From the NCBI GenBank assembly GCA_021776075.1, contig JAJFGQ010000040.1, forward strand, positions 1-64,000: 64,000 nucleotides of DNA, written 5' to 3'. Of this stretch, positions 9,796 to 56,507 are shown in pieces. Within the stretch, counting starts at the first letter, position 1. Every line of letters begins with the position of its first letter. Position numbers and translations under genes: made by a program. The notes below the pieces were generated by a model. It did no database searches and was not told where the DNA came from. It worked only from the letters and a program-made list of their open reading frames with translations. This DNA is from Alphaproteobacteria bacterium. Lineage in GTDB: Bacteria > Pseudomonadota > Alphaproteobacteria > Micavibrionales > Micavibrionaceae.

Positions 9796-10581
9796 ATGAC
9801 ACGCTGGAAACTGACAATAGAATATAAAGGGACAAATTACGCGGGCTGGCAACGACAGCTTGATGTGCCATCCGTGCAACAAGCCATCGAAGAGGCGCTG
9901 CATCGTTTTTGCCAGCAAGAAATCACGCTGCACGTTGCCGGTCGAACAGATGCTGGTGTTCATGCGAAGGGACAAGTCGCCCATTTTGATCTTGATTACG
10001 GTGACAGGCTGTTAACCGGTTTTGATCTGGCCAAAGCCCTCAATGCGCATTTAAGGCCGCAGCCCGTCAGCATCATCCATGCCGAAAAAGTACCGGAAGA
10101 GTTTAATGCCCGTCATGCCGCGATAAACAAGCTTTATACCTATCGTATCCTAAATCGCCGTTCTTTTCCGGCCCTTGAAAAAGAACTGGTCTGGCATGTT
10201 AAGAAGAAACTTGATACGGATGCCATGGCCGAGGCAGGAAAGCTTCTTCTCGGTCATCATGATTTTACAACCTTCCGTGACAGCCAGTGTCAGGCCAAAT
10301 CACCGGAAAAAACACTGGATCGTCTGGATGTGGAAGTACGGGACTATGACAGTTACGGCGGCCGCGAAATTCTTTTTCATACCGAAGCGCGCTCTTTCCT
10401 GCATCATCAGGTCCGTAATATGGTGGGAACATTAGCCCTCGTCGGTGAAGGAAAATGGCAATCGTCAGATATAAAAAAAGCGCTGGAAGCCTGCGACCGG
10501 ACAAAAGGCGGACCAACAGCCCCATCTGACGGCTTGTATTTGATGCGTGTAGACTATAAAGAAACAAATGAAGACGTTTAA
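9796..10581 (+). CDS. truA: tRNA pseudouridine(38-40) synthase
   Basis: Makes pseudouridine at positions 38-40 of the tRNA anticodon stem. The 261 residues contain the nucleophile motif AGRTDAGVHAKGQ with Asp52, the N-terminal YKGTNYAGWQRQ, and the C-terminal ARSFLHHQVRNMVG. I place the start at ATG 9796 because TruA proteins begin about nine residues before YxGxxYxGWQ; an in-frame ATG at 9742 would add 18 atypical residues. No good ribosome site precedes either start. The aminotransferase gene follows at once. Confidence 0.95.
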   Translation: MTRWKLTIEYKGTNYAGWQRQLDVPSVQQAIEEALHRFCQQEITLHVAGRTDAGVHAKGQVAHFDLDYGDRLLTGFDLAKALNAHLRPQPVSIIHAEKVPEEFNARHAAINKLYTYRILNRRSFPALEKELVWHVKKKLDTDAMAEAGKLLLGHHDFTTFRDSQCQAKSPEKTLDRLDVEVRDYDSYGGREILFHTEARSFLHHQVRNMVGTLALVGEGKWQSSDIKKALEACDRTKGGPTAPSDGLYLMRVDYKETNEDV

Positions 10582-50246: not shown

Positions 50247-51209
50247 CTAATCCACCAAAGAGGCCAGAATAGTTGATTTTGGTTTTGTATGGAGCCACCA
50301 AGCCTGACGATTAATCGAAAAAATAGGGCGGTAGCGACTGATTTGACTACTCGCCCGGACATGATCCACCTGATTGTCCAGAATGAGAGCCTCACCTTTT
50401 TCTGTGTAAACAATTAACACAGCATGCGGGATATTCTTCTGCTTATCATGGACGATAGCAACCCGCAGACGCTCTTCCGGAACACCTAATGCCCGTAAAG
50501 AAATATATTTGGCAATGGCAAAATCCTCACAATCACCGCCACGGGTAAAGAACTCCACAGGCGTTTCCCAATAATCACTTTTGCCCCAATTACGGCTATC
50601 AACAACATATTTCTGGGCATTGGCCAGTTCATTCACACCCTTTGCCATGACTTTCAGGGATTTCCCCTCCAAACCCCGCAAATCCTTTTGCCACTGACGA
50701 ATAACTTCCTGTCCCTGCGGCTGAGTCATAGCCTGCTCAAAACGCTCGAACATGCCGCTCCATTTGGTAAAAGGTTCTAAATTGACTGAACGGCGCTCTT
50801 CCGAACCAAAAAGGGCCGGATAGGTATGAACCGGAGAAAAAGCATTATTGGCCGCCGAAACAAGACTCATTTGCGCCGGAACATCCTTAATCGGATCCGC
50901 CCGAGTACTTTTTGCGCCAAAACCGGAAAAGGCAATCGTCAGAGTCATACAAGCGGCAAGACCGCGCAAAGACCATTGCTGTGCCAATGTATTATAGAGA
51001 GTCCGGCGCGTGATCATTTCTTCCTGTAAAAGTACGCGCCCGAGGCAAAGCCCTTCTTTCTTTTGACGCGCCAGAGCATAACGTAATTCGTAAGGAGTTA
51101 GGCAACCGTTCATAACCATCATTTCACCAAGACGGTTACGCCTGAGCAGTATTTTCAGCTTTCTAAAAATACCCTGATTTTTTTCCTTGTTTTCAATTCT
51201 GCCCGTCAC
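50247..51209 (-). CDS. Periplasmic transglutaminase-like cysteine peptidase with a cytoplasmic GspE-N/MshEN-like domain
   Basis: A 320-residue one-pass membrane protein. Residues about 24-80 carry two tandem motifs, RLGEMMVMNG...YALARQ (26-49) and CLGRVLLQEE...TLAQQ (55-78), as in the N-terminal domain of GspE/MshE ATPases, which in MshE binds cyclic di-GMP. A hydrophobic segment (about 83-100) follows. The remaining 220 residues are a bacterial transglutaminase-like cysteine peptidase (LapG family) with Cys227 in GGDCEDFAIAKY, His262 in IPHAVL and Asp278 in LDNQ. LapG cleaves surface adhesins under cyclic di-GMP control in other bacteria, so sensing and peptidase may be joined here. No LapD or adhesin gene is nearby. 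Confidence 0.78.
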   Translation of the reverse strand: MTGRIENKEKNQGIFRKLKILLRRNRLGEMMVMNGCLTPYELRYALARQKKEGLCLGRVLLQEEMITRRTLYNTLAQQWSLRGLAACMTLTIAFSGFGAKSTRADPIKDVPAQMSLVSAANNAFSPVHTYPALFGSEERRSVNLEPFTKWSGMFERFEQAMTQPQGQEVIRQWQKDLRGLEGKSLKVMAKGVNELANAQKYVVDSRNWGKSDYWETPVEFFTRGGDCEDFAIAKYISLRALGVPEERLRVAIVHDKQKNIPHAVLIVYTEKGEALILDNQVDHVRASSQISRYRPIFSINRQAWWLHTKPKSTILASLVD

Positions 51210-51360
51210 TATGGAACCCTCTGAATATCCTGTTATTATCCCGTATCTTTATCCCAACACCCCACCATTAGACCTGAGAAAGATTGACGAAACCTAAACA
51301 AACGGGCAAAAAGACAGTAAATGACTGGAAATAATTGAAAATAACCAAAAAACGGGAAAA

Positions 51361-52905: not shown

Positions 52906-53025
52906 TGCCGCCTAATAACCGCCGGTAAACACCGGTAAATTCGGGGCTATATTTTTTGCCAAAGAATTGCTAGGATTCAAGGGCCTTTGTTAGGATGCTA
53001 CGTGAATTCCCATGGAGATAGACTC

Positions 53026-53760
53026 ATGAATTATATTCGTCTGGCCTTTTTGGCTGTACCTTTTTTGCTGATTGGATGTTCTGCTGAAGAATGGGAATCC
53101 TACAAAACCAACTACCCCATGCCCACAGGATACGCCTACAACAGTGCAAATGCTGACAAAACAGAGACGCCCCCCTCTGATACGCAAAGTCAGGATGTCT
53201 CTATTATTGAAGACTCTGCTCACGAACAATATTCACCTCCTACATTACCGCCTCAAACCCACGGGTTTGTCAGTCATGACATGGCATGGCAAAAGGCTGC
53301 CGATGACCTTATCGGACGGATGATTATGAATTTTGGGCAGCCTATGGAACCCGTACATATCCATACGGCAGGAAGATCACCTAATGCATCCTTTGAAACA
53401 GCACTGAGAACGGCCATGGAAGACCGGGGCATGACTGTAGCATCCATGCCCGGCATGGGCCCGTTTACATTACAATATAGCGGCACTGCTGTGGACCCCC
53501 ATCAGGGTGGACGCACTCTTTTAACCGTAACATTGATGACCGGAGATAAAATGCTAATTGAGGAAAGCGGCATTTATTCCGTTAAGATAGCAGAAAATGC
53601 TCCCTCTCCGAAAACGTCGTCTTACCCTCAGGCAAGGCAACCGGATTATTCAAGACCGGCACCAGCCCTGCCCACGCCACAAAGACAACAGGGAAGCATT
53701 TCCAGACCAATTCCGCTTACACCGCCGGGCGTTAGCGCTCCCACAGGGGAATATAACTGA
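53026..53760 (+). CDS. Lipoprotein of unknown function, upstream of a FlgO-like gene
   Basis: A 244-residue lipoprotein: signal peptide with lipobox LLIGC (Cys18), a Pro/Ser/Thr-rich linker (about 25-75), a compact central domain (about 80-195) with the core DDLIGRMIMNFGQPMEPVHI and a PFTLQYSGTAVD segment, and a Pro-rich C-terminal tail. ATG 53026 has GGAG 8 nt upstream. It overlaps the next gene by one base (TGATG), so the two lipoproteins are translated together. Function is not recognisable; envelope location follows from the lipobox. Confidence 0.82.
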   Translation: MNYIRLAFLAVPFLLIGCSAEEWESYKTNYPMPTGYAYNSANADKTETPPSDTQSQDVSIIEDSAHEQYSPPTLPPQTHGFVSHDMAWQKAADDLIGRMIMNFGQPMEPVHIHTAGRSPNASFETALRTAMEDRGMTVASMPGMGPFTLQYSGTAVDPHQGGRTLLTVTLMTGDKMLIEESGIYSVKIAENAPSPKTSSYPQARQPDYSRPAPALPTPQRQQGSISRPIPLTPPGVSAPTGEYN

Positions 53761-54386
53761 TGACGCTATCAAAAAAAGGCTTTGATAAAAACGTCACATT
53801 ATGGACAAAAATCTCTCTCTTGCCTTTGTTCATTTGCTTCCTTCTGTTGTCAGGATGTACAGCAACATTTCTTGATAATAGTCCGTTTGAATCCGACCCG
53901 GTCAACCTTACAGAATCAAGTTATGCAGCGACCGATATGCTGGTACAGCAGTCAAAATCTGTTGTGATGGCTGAAACGCCTTTACGGGTTGGCGTTCTCA
54001 TGGATATGAATAATCCTGACAGACTCACTTCATTCGGACGGGTTGTGGCCAGTCAAATTGGCGCCCGCTTTGTCCAGTTAGGCTACAATGTCAGGGCCTC
54101 CAGTTTTGATGAGGTCATGATGATGCGAGATGACGCGGCGAATGCGGCCGGCAAAGCTCAGGATTCCGCAATACCCTCCTACGGCGGTGATCAGGGTGCC
54201 GCCGGAACAGCGCTTCTTATGGGTCAATACGCGCTGGCCCGGAAAGAGGTTCTCATCAATCTGAGAATCATTGAAATTGATACGGGCCGCGTCATGGCGG
54301 CCTATGATTATGCCCTGCCCCTGAACAGCGATATCAAGGCACTAGTCAAAACAGACGAGGACAAAGAGACACTTTTCGGTCTTTAG
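53760..54386 (+). CDS. FlgO-like outer-membrane lipoprotein
   Basis: A 208-residue lipoprotein with lipobox LLSGC (Cys33). The folded part (about 50-200) has LRVGVLMDMNNPDRLTSFGR, VASQIGARFVQLGYNVRAS and LMGQYALARKEVLINLRIIE, which match the FlgO domain seen in Vibrio FlgO, a protein of the flagellar outer-membrane ring. No flagellar genes are near it here, and FlgO-domain proteins also occur outside flagellar loci. It pairs with the lipoprotein just upstream (1-nt overlap) and converges on the pilin-like gene. Confidence 0.75.
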   Translation: MTLSKKGFDKNVTLWTKISLLPLFICFLLLSGCTATFLDNSPFESDPVNLTESSYAATDMLVQQSKSVVMAETPLRVGVLMDMNNPDRLTSFGRVVASQIGARFVQLGYNVRASSFDEVMMMRDDAANAAGKAQDSAIPSYGGDQGAAGTALLMGQYALARKEVLINLRIIEIDTGRVMAAYDYALPLNSDIKALVKTDEDKETLFGL

Positions 54387-54405: not shown

Positions 54406-55119
54406 TTAGCGCGAAATCAGCACATGATAAAAATGTCTCACACCGCCGCACGTCACGCAGGCTTGCGGCGCCGGTGTAGTACTGAACGACGCCACTGTTT
54501 CATCCAGTAAATTCACTGTTACAGTATCATCAAAAGGCGGCGTAGCCGTACCAAACCGTTTACCTGTGTCGTGAAGACAGCCGCCACCATTATCATCGGG
54601 CGCACCAGTCTGATTATTAATTTCATTAATTTTGGCACAAAATTGCAATGTGACATCAGGCAACACGGCAATCAACTCTGCGCGCCTGAATCCGGCTCTA
54701 CTGCTCCCCGCACCCGGTATGTGCGTATGACTATAGAACTCCCAGTCTGCCGCGGCTATTTGCACATCAGCCGGCGGCAATCTGTATTCCGCCCCGCCGC
54801 CCTGTGTACTAAACACCTGAAATTGGGGTGTTGTAGCAATAACACCGTAATCACTATGCGCATCAGGGTGAGCAAAACGGATGTCGGTTTCACTCGCGCC
54901 ATTCTGCATTATAAAAGTAATGGCCCGCTCCAGCTCAGAGGCGTGTTGCCTGGCCTGCGTAACCTTCAAAAACAGGCTTTCCTTGTCAATATTGGCATCG
55001 CCACCGCCAGAACGGAGGGCAGCCGTAACCAAACCGATCAGGACAATCGCCATCAGGATGAAAAAAATGACGTTCCCTGACTCGCCCCCCAACTCTCCCT
55101 GTGACCGTTTTGTTTCCAT
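54406..55119 (-). CDS. Pilin-like membrane protein with a C-terminal HFYxVLIxR motif
   Basis: A 237-residue protein with a short basic N-terminus, one hydrophobic helix (about 17-35, VIFFILMAIVLIGLVTAAL) and an extracytoplasmic domain, a layout like type IV pilins or pseudopilins but without a clear prepilin cleavage site. The C-terminal third has a CxxINxxxGAP segment, more cysteines, and ends HFYHVLISR. The partial gene at the right edge of the window ends HFYQVLIVR after the same CxxIN segment, so these are paralogues. ATG 55119 is 14 nt after the stop of the carboxypeptidase gene; an in-frame start at 55164 would overlap that gene. Confidence 0.65.
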   Translation of the reverse strand: METKRSQGELGGESGNVIFFILMAIVLIGLVTAALRSGGGDANIDKESLFLKVTQARQHASELERAITFIMQNGASETDIRFAHPDAHSDYGVIATTPQFQVFSTQGGGAEYRLPPADVQIAAADWEFYSHTHIPGAGSSRAGFRRAELIAVLPDVTLQFCAKINEINNQTGAPDDNGGGCLHDTGKRFGTATPPFDDTVTVNLLDETVASFSTTPAPQACVTCGGVRHFYHVLISR

Positions 55120-55133
55120 GAGTAACACGCTTT

Positions 55134-56507
55134 CTAATAGGCCTGTGGCGATACAGGCAGACAATCGTCAATCAAGCGACAGGCGTTTAGAGCCTCTGTC
55201 TTATTGTAGCCCTTCAATCTTCCCCTGAACAACCATCCCTTATTCGTTCTCAACGGTGCTATAATAGCCGTCACCGTCGATAAATCAGCCGGCAGACTAT
55301 TCCGCGCCAAAGTAATAGCCCGATCCGTTTTTACCCGGCTTTTAAAAGCACCAACCTGAATAGCCCAGTTTTTCACCTCTTCCTTTTTCTCATCTTTCTC
55401 AACAAGAAGCATTCCATTCTCCTTAAGGGCAGCAATACCCAAAAGCCCCGTCTCCAGCCGTTTGGAAACCGCCGGATCATAATCACCTTCACCAATCATC
55501 GTGCTAAAGGTTTTGTTCTGCAGTATCGGATTCAAAACAGCCCATCTGGCAGGTTGCCCCGCTGCCGGTACAATATTGTTCAAAGAAGCCATCCTAACGG
55601 AAGAATCAGGCTTTCGTGACGGTACAGGAACAGAGGCTACAGTCATCTGCGGCAATTTAGCGAACGCCTTATCAAGAAGACGGGCCATATGGGCATTGCG
55701 GCTTTTTGCCGTCCGCCCACCAAAAACAATCCCTATAACACGGTGATTATCACGCCGGGCCGACGCAGCCAGATTAAATCCGGAAGCCTGTATATAGCCC
55801 GTTTTTAAGCCATCCATTCCTCTATAGCTATCCATCAGACGATTATGATTACGATATGTTTTACCGCGATAAGTAAACTTTCGCGTGGAAAAATAATGGT
55901 AATATTGGGGATATACGGTCATCAAGTAACGGCCAAGCTTGGCCATATCACGGGCCGTTGTCACCTGTTTTGAATGATGCAAACCGGACGCATTGCGAAA
56001 TCGCGTACGCGTCATACCCATTTCCCGCGCTTTATTATTCATCATAACAGCAAACTGACTTTCCGTTCCGGCTATTTTCTCACCCAGCGCCACAGCAACA
56101 TCATTCGCCGATTTGGTTACGAGAACATAAATGGCGTCCTCCACCCGTATTGTAGACCCCACCGGCAAATTAAGTTTGCTGGGAACCATTTTAGCAGCGT
56201 GCCGGGACATAGTCACCCGATCGCGCAGCCGCAACCGCTTTTCTTCCAAGGCTTCGAACGTCATAAGAAGAGTCATCATTTTTACCAGAGAGGCCGGATA
56301 CAAGACTTTATCCGCACGGCTCTGGTGAAGAATAACACCGGTATCAGCATCCATAACAATAGAGGCATAACGGGGATTCGATTTTGCCCATGACGCGTGA
56401 GAAGACGCGCAAACAATCAACCCGGTCAACCCGATAAGAAACGCCACAGCAAACAAGCTGCGAAAACAGAAAAAAGAGGAGCTATACTTTTTGTAAAACC
56501 CGTTCAT
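55134..56507 (-). CDS. D-alanyl-D-alanine carboxypeptidase with SPOR domain
   Basis: A 457-residue PBP5/6-type (peptidase S11) D,D-carboxypeptidase that trims peptidoglycan stem peptides in the periplasm. A hydrophobic signal segment (about 15-38) precedes the catalytic domain with SLVK (Ser73, Lys76), SAN (133-135) and KTG (235-237). A linker leads to a C-terminal SPOR domain (about 370-450, beginning NWAIQVGAF), which binds denuded glycan strands at the division site. The pilin-like gene follows by 14 nt. A second, SPOR-less paralogue is next upstream. Confidence 0.93.
   Translation of the reverse strand: MNGFYKKYSSSFFCFRSLFAVAFLIGLTGLIVCASSHASWAKSNPRYASIVMDADTGVILHQSRADKVLYPASLVKMMTLLMTFEALEEKRLRLRDRVTMSRHAAKMVPSKLNLPVGSTIRVEDAIYVLVTKSANDVAVALGEKIAGTESQFAVMMNNKAREMGMTRTRFRNASGLHHSKQVTTARDMAKLGRYLMTVYPQYYHYFSTRKFTYRGKTYRNHNRLMDSYRGMDGLKTGYIQASGFNLAASARRDNHRVIGIVFGGRTAKSRNAHMARLLDKAFAKLPQMTVASVPVPSRKPDSSVRMASLNNIVPAAGQPARWAVLNPILQNKTFSTMIGEGDYDPAVSKRLETGLLGIAALKENGMLLVEKDEKKEEVKNWAIQVGAFKSRVKTDRAITLARNSLPADLSTVTAIIAPLRTNKGWLFRGRLKGYNKTEALNACRLIDDCLPVSPQAY

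Follow-up and report, generated by a model that had tools for sequence, protein, structure and literature searches.

In the LapD-LapG system, the receptor LapD retains the peptidase LapG while cyclic di-GMP is high. To our knowledge, such inside-out cyclic di-GMP control of periplasmic proteolysis is known only with separate receptors, namely LapD and DvhD. That another receptor can take the place of LapD in such a circuit is seen in Desulfovibrio vulgaris, in which the LapG-type peptidase DvhG is governed by the non-LapD cyclic di-GMP receptor DvhD (PMC13090378). A further member of the BTLCP family, HvyA of the alphaproteobacterium Caulobacter crescentus, carries a Sec signal peptide and acts in the periplasm, and indicates that alphaproteobacterial C93 proteins can affect quite different surface traits (PMC4241560). 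Here we analyze a gene of the order Micavibrionales that encodes an MshEN-type domain and a LapG-like peptidase in a single open reading frame, with a hydrophobic segment of signal type between them.

The Fusion Gene, Its Neighborhood and Its Distribution

The gene lies in a stretch of 64,000 nucleotides (contig JAJFGQ010000040.1 of GCA_021776075.1), hereafter called the window, from a 2.29-Mb assembly of the order Micavibrionales. Its features are the following.

50247..51209, minus strand: whole open reading frame, 320 amino acids, combining MshEN domain, signal-type hydrophobic segment and LapG-like peptidase
51217..51222, minus strand: ribosome-binding site AGAGGG, 8 nt upstream of the GTG start (from the sequence)
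50976..51134, minus strand: MshEN-type cyclic di-GMP-binding motif pair, residues 26-78 (from NF053729, fold matches and conservation of contact residues)
50913..50963, minus strand: hydrophobic segment, residues 83-99, following the conserved R82 (weak hydropathy, high variability)
50898..50906, minus strand: predicted signal peptidase I box T-R-A, residues 102-104, with the cut expected after A104 (from conservation)
50250..50897, minus strand: predicted mature LapG-like peptidase, residues 105-320 (from PF06035 and LapG structures)
50529..50531, minus strand: predicted catalytic Cys227, between the calcium-site residues D226 and E228 (from the 4fgo/4u65 alignment and invariance)
50424..50426, minus strand: predicted catalytic His262 (from the LapG alignment and invariance)
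50376..50378, minus strand: predicted catalytic Asp278 (from the LapG alignment and invariance)

Judged by its ribosome-binding site and by full-length orthologues in dozens of genera, the open reading frame, which starts with the GTG at 51209, is a real gene. An internal start yielding a peptidase devoid of the sensor was considered and rejected, since the orthologues share no internal Met. Comparison of 80 related loci revealed no operon partner, the fusion gene standing alone; hldE is divergent from it in 64 of these loci and pyruvate kinase lies nearby in 42. Beyond hldE, the window contains a tandem pair of lipoprotein-like genes (52987-54386, plus strand), the second of which belongs to the FlgO family (54.4 bits) and is kept in 30/80 loci. 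Next to it lies a gene for a conserved protein without Pfam match (54406-55164, minus strand; present in 33/80 loci), the hydrophobic N-terminus of which, E-S/R-G-N-x-L/I-F-x-I-L-x-A, slightly resembles a pilin or prepilin anchor.

Among the 58 genomes sampled from this family and order, 54 contain a full-length or near-full-length relative of the fusion, as do 46 of the 47 good ones. No fusion was found outside Micavibrionales among the 385 genomes of Alphaproteobacteria and 398 of Pseudomonadota sampled; these genomes contain many C93 peptidases, the matches of which begin only at about profile position 67-100 and leave the MshEN part uncovered. From this distribution the fusion looks old within Micavibrionales and apparently confined to them within the Alphaproteobacteria and Pseudomonadota sampled. 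A genome bearing it usually encodes a single further MshEN protein, which is a PilB-type ATPase of 600-800 amino acids. Two kinds of related proteins were noted along the way: a C93 peptidase that lacks MshEN and has an ordinary hydrophobic signal at its N-terminus in Micavibrio sp. UBA6147 (L112, ORF at 9911), and open frames of 966-986 amino acids with a weak MshEN-like match in one genus of Micavibrionales (G044:C8, G053:C52 and G056:C23).

The MshEN Domain

The N-terminal part had been predicted to carry tandem RLGxx motifs of the MshE type. In a profile search, NF053729 (MshE-related cyclic di-GMP motif) matches residues 26-78 over its full length (1-53/53) with 51.3 bits, the cut-off being 38 bits, and a second search placed the motif pair identically. 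Two motifs of 24 residues with a spacer of 5 residues account for the 53 residues that characterize MshEN domains, and the predicted pair is thus borne out except for the second motif, which starts with CLG and not RLG (C55 in the window protein). Searches with phmmer against solved structures also matched the N-domains of PilF and MshE, more weakly than LapG. The same assignment emerges from an AlphaFold2 model built from 79 natural sequences (mean pLDDT 88), residues 25-82 of which fit the structure of MshE with cyclic di-GMP (5htl, matched as 5htl_B) at 0.7 A over 55 columns with 38% identity in Foldseek and with Z 10.8 in VIA-align. PilF GSPII-B is another Foldseek match for this receptor part, and the N-domain of PilB with PilZ (7lko) fits it with Z 9.2. 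The fold is thus that of the GspE/MshE N-domain, as originally predicted, and not a different one.

Conservation was evaluated in alignment A2, comprising 79 orthologues with 37-63% identity to the window protein. Among residues 1-146 only five columns are invariant, G28, L42, G57, Q78 and A104, the first four of which are cyclic di-GMP contacts in MshE: the glycine amides, one leucine from the hydrophobic triangle and the glutamine at the end (PMC5013675). Other contact residues are kept in most sequences (L75 in 78/79, L46 in 76/79 and Q49 in 62/79), so that the 12 contact positions have a mean entropy of 0.62 bits versus 2.34 bits for the 41 remaining domain positions (Mann-Whitney p = 6e-6; 79 orthologues).

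The Arg position of the first motif is R or K in all 79 orthologues. Its counterpart in the second motif, the only contact that has been lost, is variable and is occupied by Pro in 38 of the 79. The motif definition has since been widened to R/K/L at this position, which means that Arg is not strictly required; indeed, the GSPII-C domain of PilF, with Pro in its place, binds cyclic di-GMP with a KD of ~460 nM, and GSPII-B, with Leu, does so with a KD of 6 nM (PMC11731258). Since these domains bind without that Arg, its loss is no argument against binding here. The non-binder XpsE has lost glycines, leucines and a glutamine among the contacts (PMC5013675). Taken together, sequence and model make it very probable that the MshEN part of the fusion protein binds cyclic di-GMP. 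A chance or weak motif was rejected as an explanation, given that profile, fold and conservation in 79 sequences are concordant.

The LapG-like Peptidase

The C-terminal part matches PF06035 (Peptidase_C93) at residues 183-291 with 73.3 bits (cut-off, 27 bits), and phmmer against solved structures retrieved LapG of Legionella and Pseudomonas with E ~1e-23. Residues ~109-308 of the AlphaFold2 model fit LapG 4fgq with Z 17.7 in VIA-align, LapG being among the Foldseek matches as well. C227, H262 and D278, predicted from the outset to be the catalytic residues, align with the triad of LapG (4fgo/4u65) and are invariant in the 79 orthologues, as are the calcium residues D226 and E228 flanking the Cys. 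The NCBIfam equivalog CystProtLapG scores 110.5 bits against a cut-off of 320, so that the fusion peptidase should be regarded as a BTLCP relative and not as a LapG equivalog. The fusion protein belongs both to the wider C93/BTLCP family and to the MshEN domain family, and the original prediction of a receptor-type domain joined to a LapG-type peptidase in a single product holds across profiles and the 79 orthologues. The same genome encodes a second, diverged transglutaminase-like protein of ~340 amino acids (G000:C27:13150-14184, equivalent to L125:8151-9185, minus strand), which has an ordinary signal peptide and shows GDCDDYA where the fusion has GDCEDFA.

A Probable Cleavable Signal between the Two Parts

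A membrane helix had been predicted to follow the receptor domain. A hydrophobic segment is indeed found at residues 83-99, but it is weakly hydrophobic and ends in a signal peptidase box. Position 104 is Ala in 79/79 orthologues, position 102 (-3) is A, S, V, T or G in 78/79 and Pro never occurs at +1; the small-residue rule of signal peptidase I at -3 and -1 is thus satisfied in 78 of the 79 sequences. R82, directly ahead of the hydrophobic stretch, is R or K in every orthologue. The stretch itself is 16-18 residues long in most orthologues and is shorter or interrupted by Gln or Pro in some. Measured as the best 19-residue Kyte-Doolittle mean, its hydropathy amounts to 1.33 for the window protein and to a median of 1.55 over the orthologues, 61% of which, the window protein included, fall under the common anchor threshold of 1.6; the signal peptides of the neighboring DacA/DacB reach 2.18 and a neighboring membrane-anchored protein 2.96. 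Column entropy is 2.6 bits for the fusion segment, compared with 2.95 bits for the DacA/DacB signal peptides and 1.33 bits for the anchor. The DacA/DacB controls also exhibit an A-x-A pattern, in less strict form, and the membrane-anchored control has none. Moreover, non-fused alphaproteobacterial relatives (L135, L137, L139 and L140) possess an ordinary signal peptide immediately before the start of the shared peptidase. No twin-arginine motif for Tat export was seen by eye beside the hydrophobic segment.

In its sequence features the segment looks like a signal peptide and not like a membrane anchor, and cleavage by signal peptidase I after A104 is probable. Given the invariant A104, the strict -3 position, the sub-threshold hydropathy and the signal peptides of non-fused relatives, a permanent membrane-spanning sensor-peptidase is less likely than a sensor placed before a cleavable signal. 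The original idea of a single chain across the membrane consequently needs qualification: both parts do belong to one gene product, but the box conserved in 78/79 orthologues and the weak segment suggest that spanning is probably transient. LtaS is a precedent for a membrane protein cut by signal peptidase, for which our search of the open-access literature did not retrieve a report. The simplest history would be that an MshEN domain was added ahead of a pre-existing signal peptide, the cleavage site having been under selection since. Residue 100 (window 50910-50912), at -5 of the cleavage box, is Lys or Arg in 60/79 orthologues, which is unusual for the c-region of a signal peptide and absent from the non-fused relatives; it might slow or condition cleavage.

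Signaling Context and Possible Substrates

A search for a separate LapD, which the original prediction had called for, returned none in the order: the LapD domain PF16448 was found in none of the 56 relatives searched, the source genome among them, by a profile search that in the positive control detected it in 83 of 299 Pseudomonadota. GGDEF proteins are present in 38/38 genomes of relatives, with nine in the source genome. With GGDEF proteins present and LapD absent, a circuit would need another receptor, which the fusion supplies.

A surface protein is a somewhat favored guess for the substrate of the peptidase. Of 56 genomes, 39 have matches to the LapA retention module, all of which are below the cut-off, span only about positions 3-68 of 145 and sit in proteins of ~800-1200 amino acids with FecR-like and FG-GAP-like repeats (domain names assigned by eye). 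In four of the loci that were read, the corresponding genes adjoin a T1SS transporter, an HlyD-like protein, a CHASE2-cyclase and a cyclic-nucleotide-binding EAL protein. No conserved di-alanine site of the form [T/A/P]AAG was found in these candidate proteins, and their co-occurrence with the fusion is uninformative because almost every genome of the order has the fusion. We consider the FecR-like/FG-GAP T1SS proteins as first substrate candidates, no more. In their own right, the members of this family of ~1080-1210 amino acids (large ORFs of L123, L124, L128 and L129, and G000:C15:1-1421 in L122, the source-genome copy, interrupted by the contig end) are possible Micavibrionales surface proteins linking cAMP and cyclic di-GMP.

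Proposed Mechanism and Its Alternatives

The best model for these data, to which we assign a probability of about 0.45, is that the ligand state of the MshEN leader gates the export or release of the LapG-like peptidase. The MshEN receptor would fold in the cytoplasm and the weakly hydrophobic segment would engage the Sec translocon in an N-in orientation, so that the peptidase would cross the membrane; signal peptidase I would then cut after A104 to leave a free peptidase in the periplasm, where it would cut a surface protein. Gating could act when the segment enters the Sec translocon or when signal peptidase reaches A104, and in both cases the amount of free periplasmic peptidase would depend on the ligand state. 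If LapD is taken as a guide, the peptidase would be retained while cyclic di-GMP is bound and freed once the ligand is lost, a direction which, once gating is granted, we regard as slightly favored over its reverse. In the AlphaFold2 model, the last MshEN helix bears the ligand contacts L71, L75 and Q78 and passes directly, with no linker, into the hydrophobic segment; helix 68-95 is unbroken, and model confidence is low at residues 91-110. The absence of a linker would place the ligand site at the membrane surface or signal entrance, in a position able to gate export or cleavage, and the weakness of the signal suggests slow targeting, which may allow time for sensing. We propose more tentatively that the second messenger gates export directly, cyclic di-GMP on a receptor upstream of a marginally hydrophobic cleavable signal deciding translocation or release of the peptidase with no separate receptor. 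Against the gating model stand the unusual Lys/Arg at -5 (60/79), the lost Arg of the second motif and the weakness of the structural model at residues 91-110; moreover, if cleavage were fast, the sensor could act on newly made protein only.

Were the segment a permanent anchor instead, the chain would remain in one piece and binding of cyclic di-GMP in the cytoplasm would allosterically alter the activity or reach of the periplasmic peptidase. This arrangement fits the domain order and topology, the frequent K/R at position 100 could mark the end of an anchor, and a membrane-anchored LapG-type peptidase exists in DvhG of D. vulgaris (PMC13090378). We nevertheless consider it rather unlikely, because an anchor accounts poorly for the invariance of A104, the strictness of the -3 position and the sub-threshold hydropathy in 61% of the orthologues, several of which have Pro and Gln inside the segment, and because the ~40 mostly variable residues separating segment and peptidase would make direct transmission hard.

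The sequence evidence for the gating model would equally fit a precursor of two products, in which residues 1-104 remain at the inner membrane as a leader with a cyclic di-GMP task of its own and the freed peptidase is constitutive, the two parts being mutually dispensable after cleavage. Such a leader would be devoid of an effector domain, however, and the order-wide retention of a fusion to this peptidase alone suggests that the functions are coupled, which renders the two-product precursor improbable. Still less credible is a role of the MshEN-like part as a docking or localization module, for instance for a PilZ protein or a polar inner-membrane site, in place of a cyclic di-GMP sensor. 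The fit to the PilB N-domain in its PilZ complex (7lko) and the loss of the second-motif Arg would be consistent with docking, but the invariant residues are exactly the ligand contacts, several of which the non-binder XpsE has lost (PMC5013675). Ligand gating of peptidase export or release thus remains our preferred reading.

Significance and Comparison with Known Systems

Receptor and protease are combined in one gene that is kept order-wide in Micavibrionales, an order including predators. Prey attachment and departure are central to predatory bacteria, and the fusion offers a concrete lead to the control of surface attachment in Micavibrio-type bacteria. Should the signal peptide indeed be gated by the ligand, a second messenger would control protein export directly, which would be a new type of regulation. 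Our searches of the open-access literature found neither an MshEN-peptidase fusion nor a cyclic di-GMP-gated signal peptide.

The fusion shares its 53-residue motif pair and fold with MshE, PilB/PilF and NfrB (PMC5013675, PMC11731258, PMC8669469). The known outputs of MshEN domains are ATPases, glycosyltransferases and cytoplasmic signaling domains, whereas that of the fusion is a peptidase; among MshEN partners, the main text of PMC5013675 lists neither a downstream peptidase nor a signal peptide. HvyA lacks an MshEN domain, is governed by cell-cycle transcription and acts on capsulation (PMC4241560). In the LapD-LapG systems of Pseudomonas fluorescens and Legionella (CdgS9-LapG), intracellular cyclic di-GMP is tied to a C93 (BTLCP) peptidase beyond the inner membrane, with the same triad, calcium motif and fold as in the fusion peptidase. 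The fusion differs from them in that its receptor is an MshEN domain, not a degenerate GGDEF-EAL protein, and sits on the N-terminus of the peptidase itself; the LapD domain is absent from the order and the candidate substrates have no conserved LapA-type site. The D. vulgaris pair departs from it in another way, DvhD being a separate HD-GYP/dCache protein and DvhG having no cytoplasmic receptor domain. In outline, then, the fusion would work like LapD-LapG and DvhD-DvhG, of which it is not a member.
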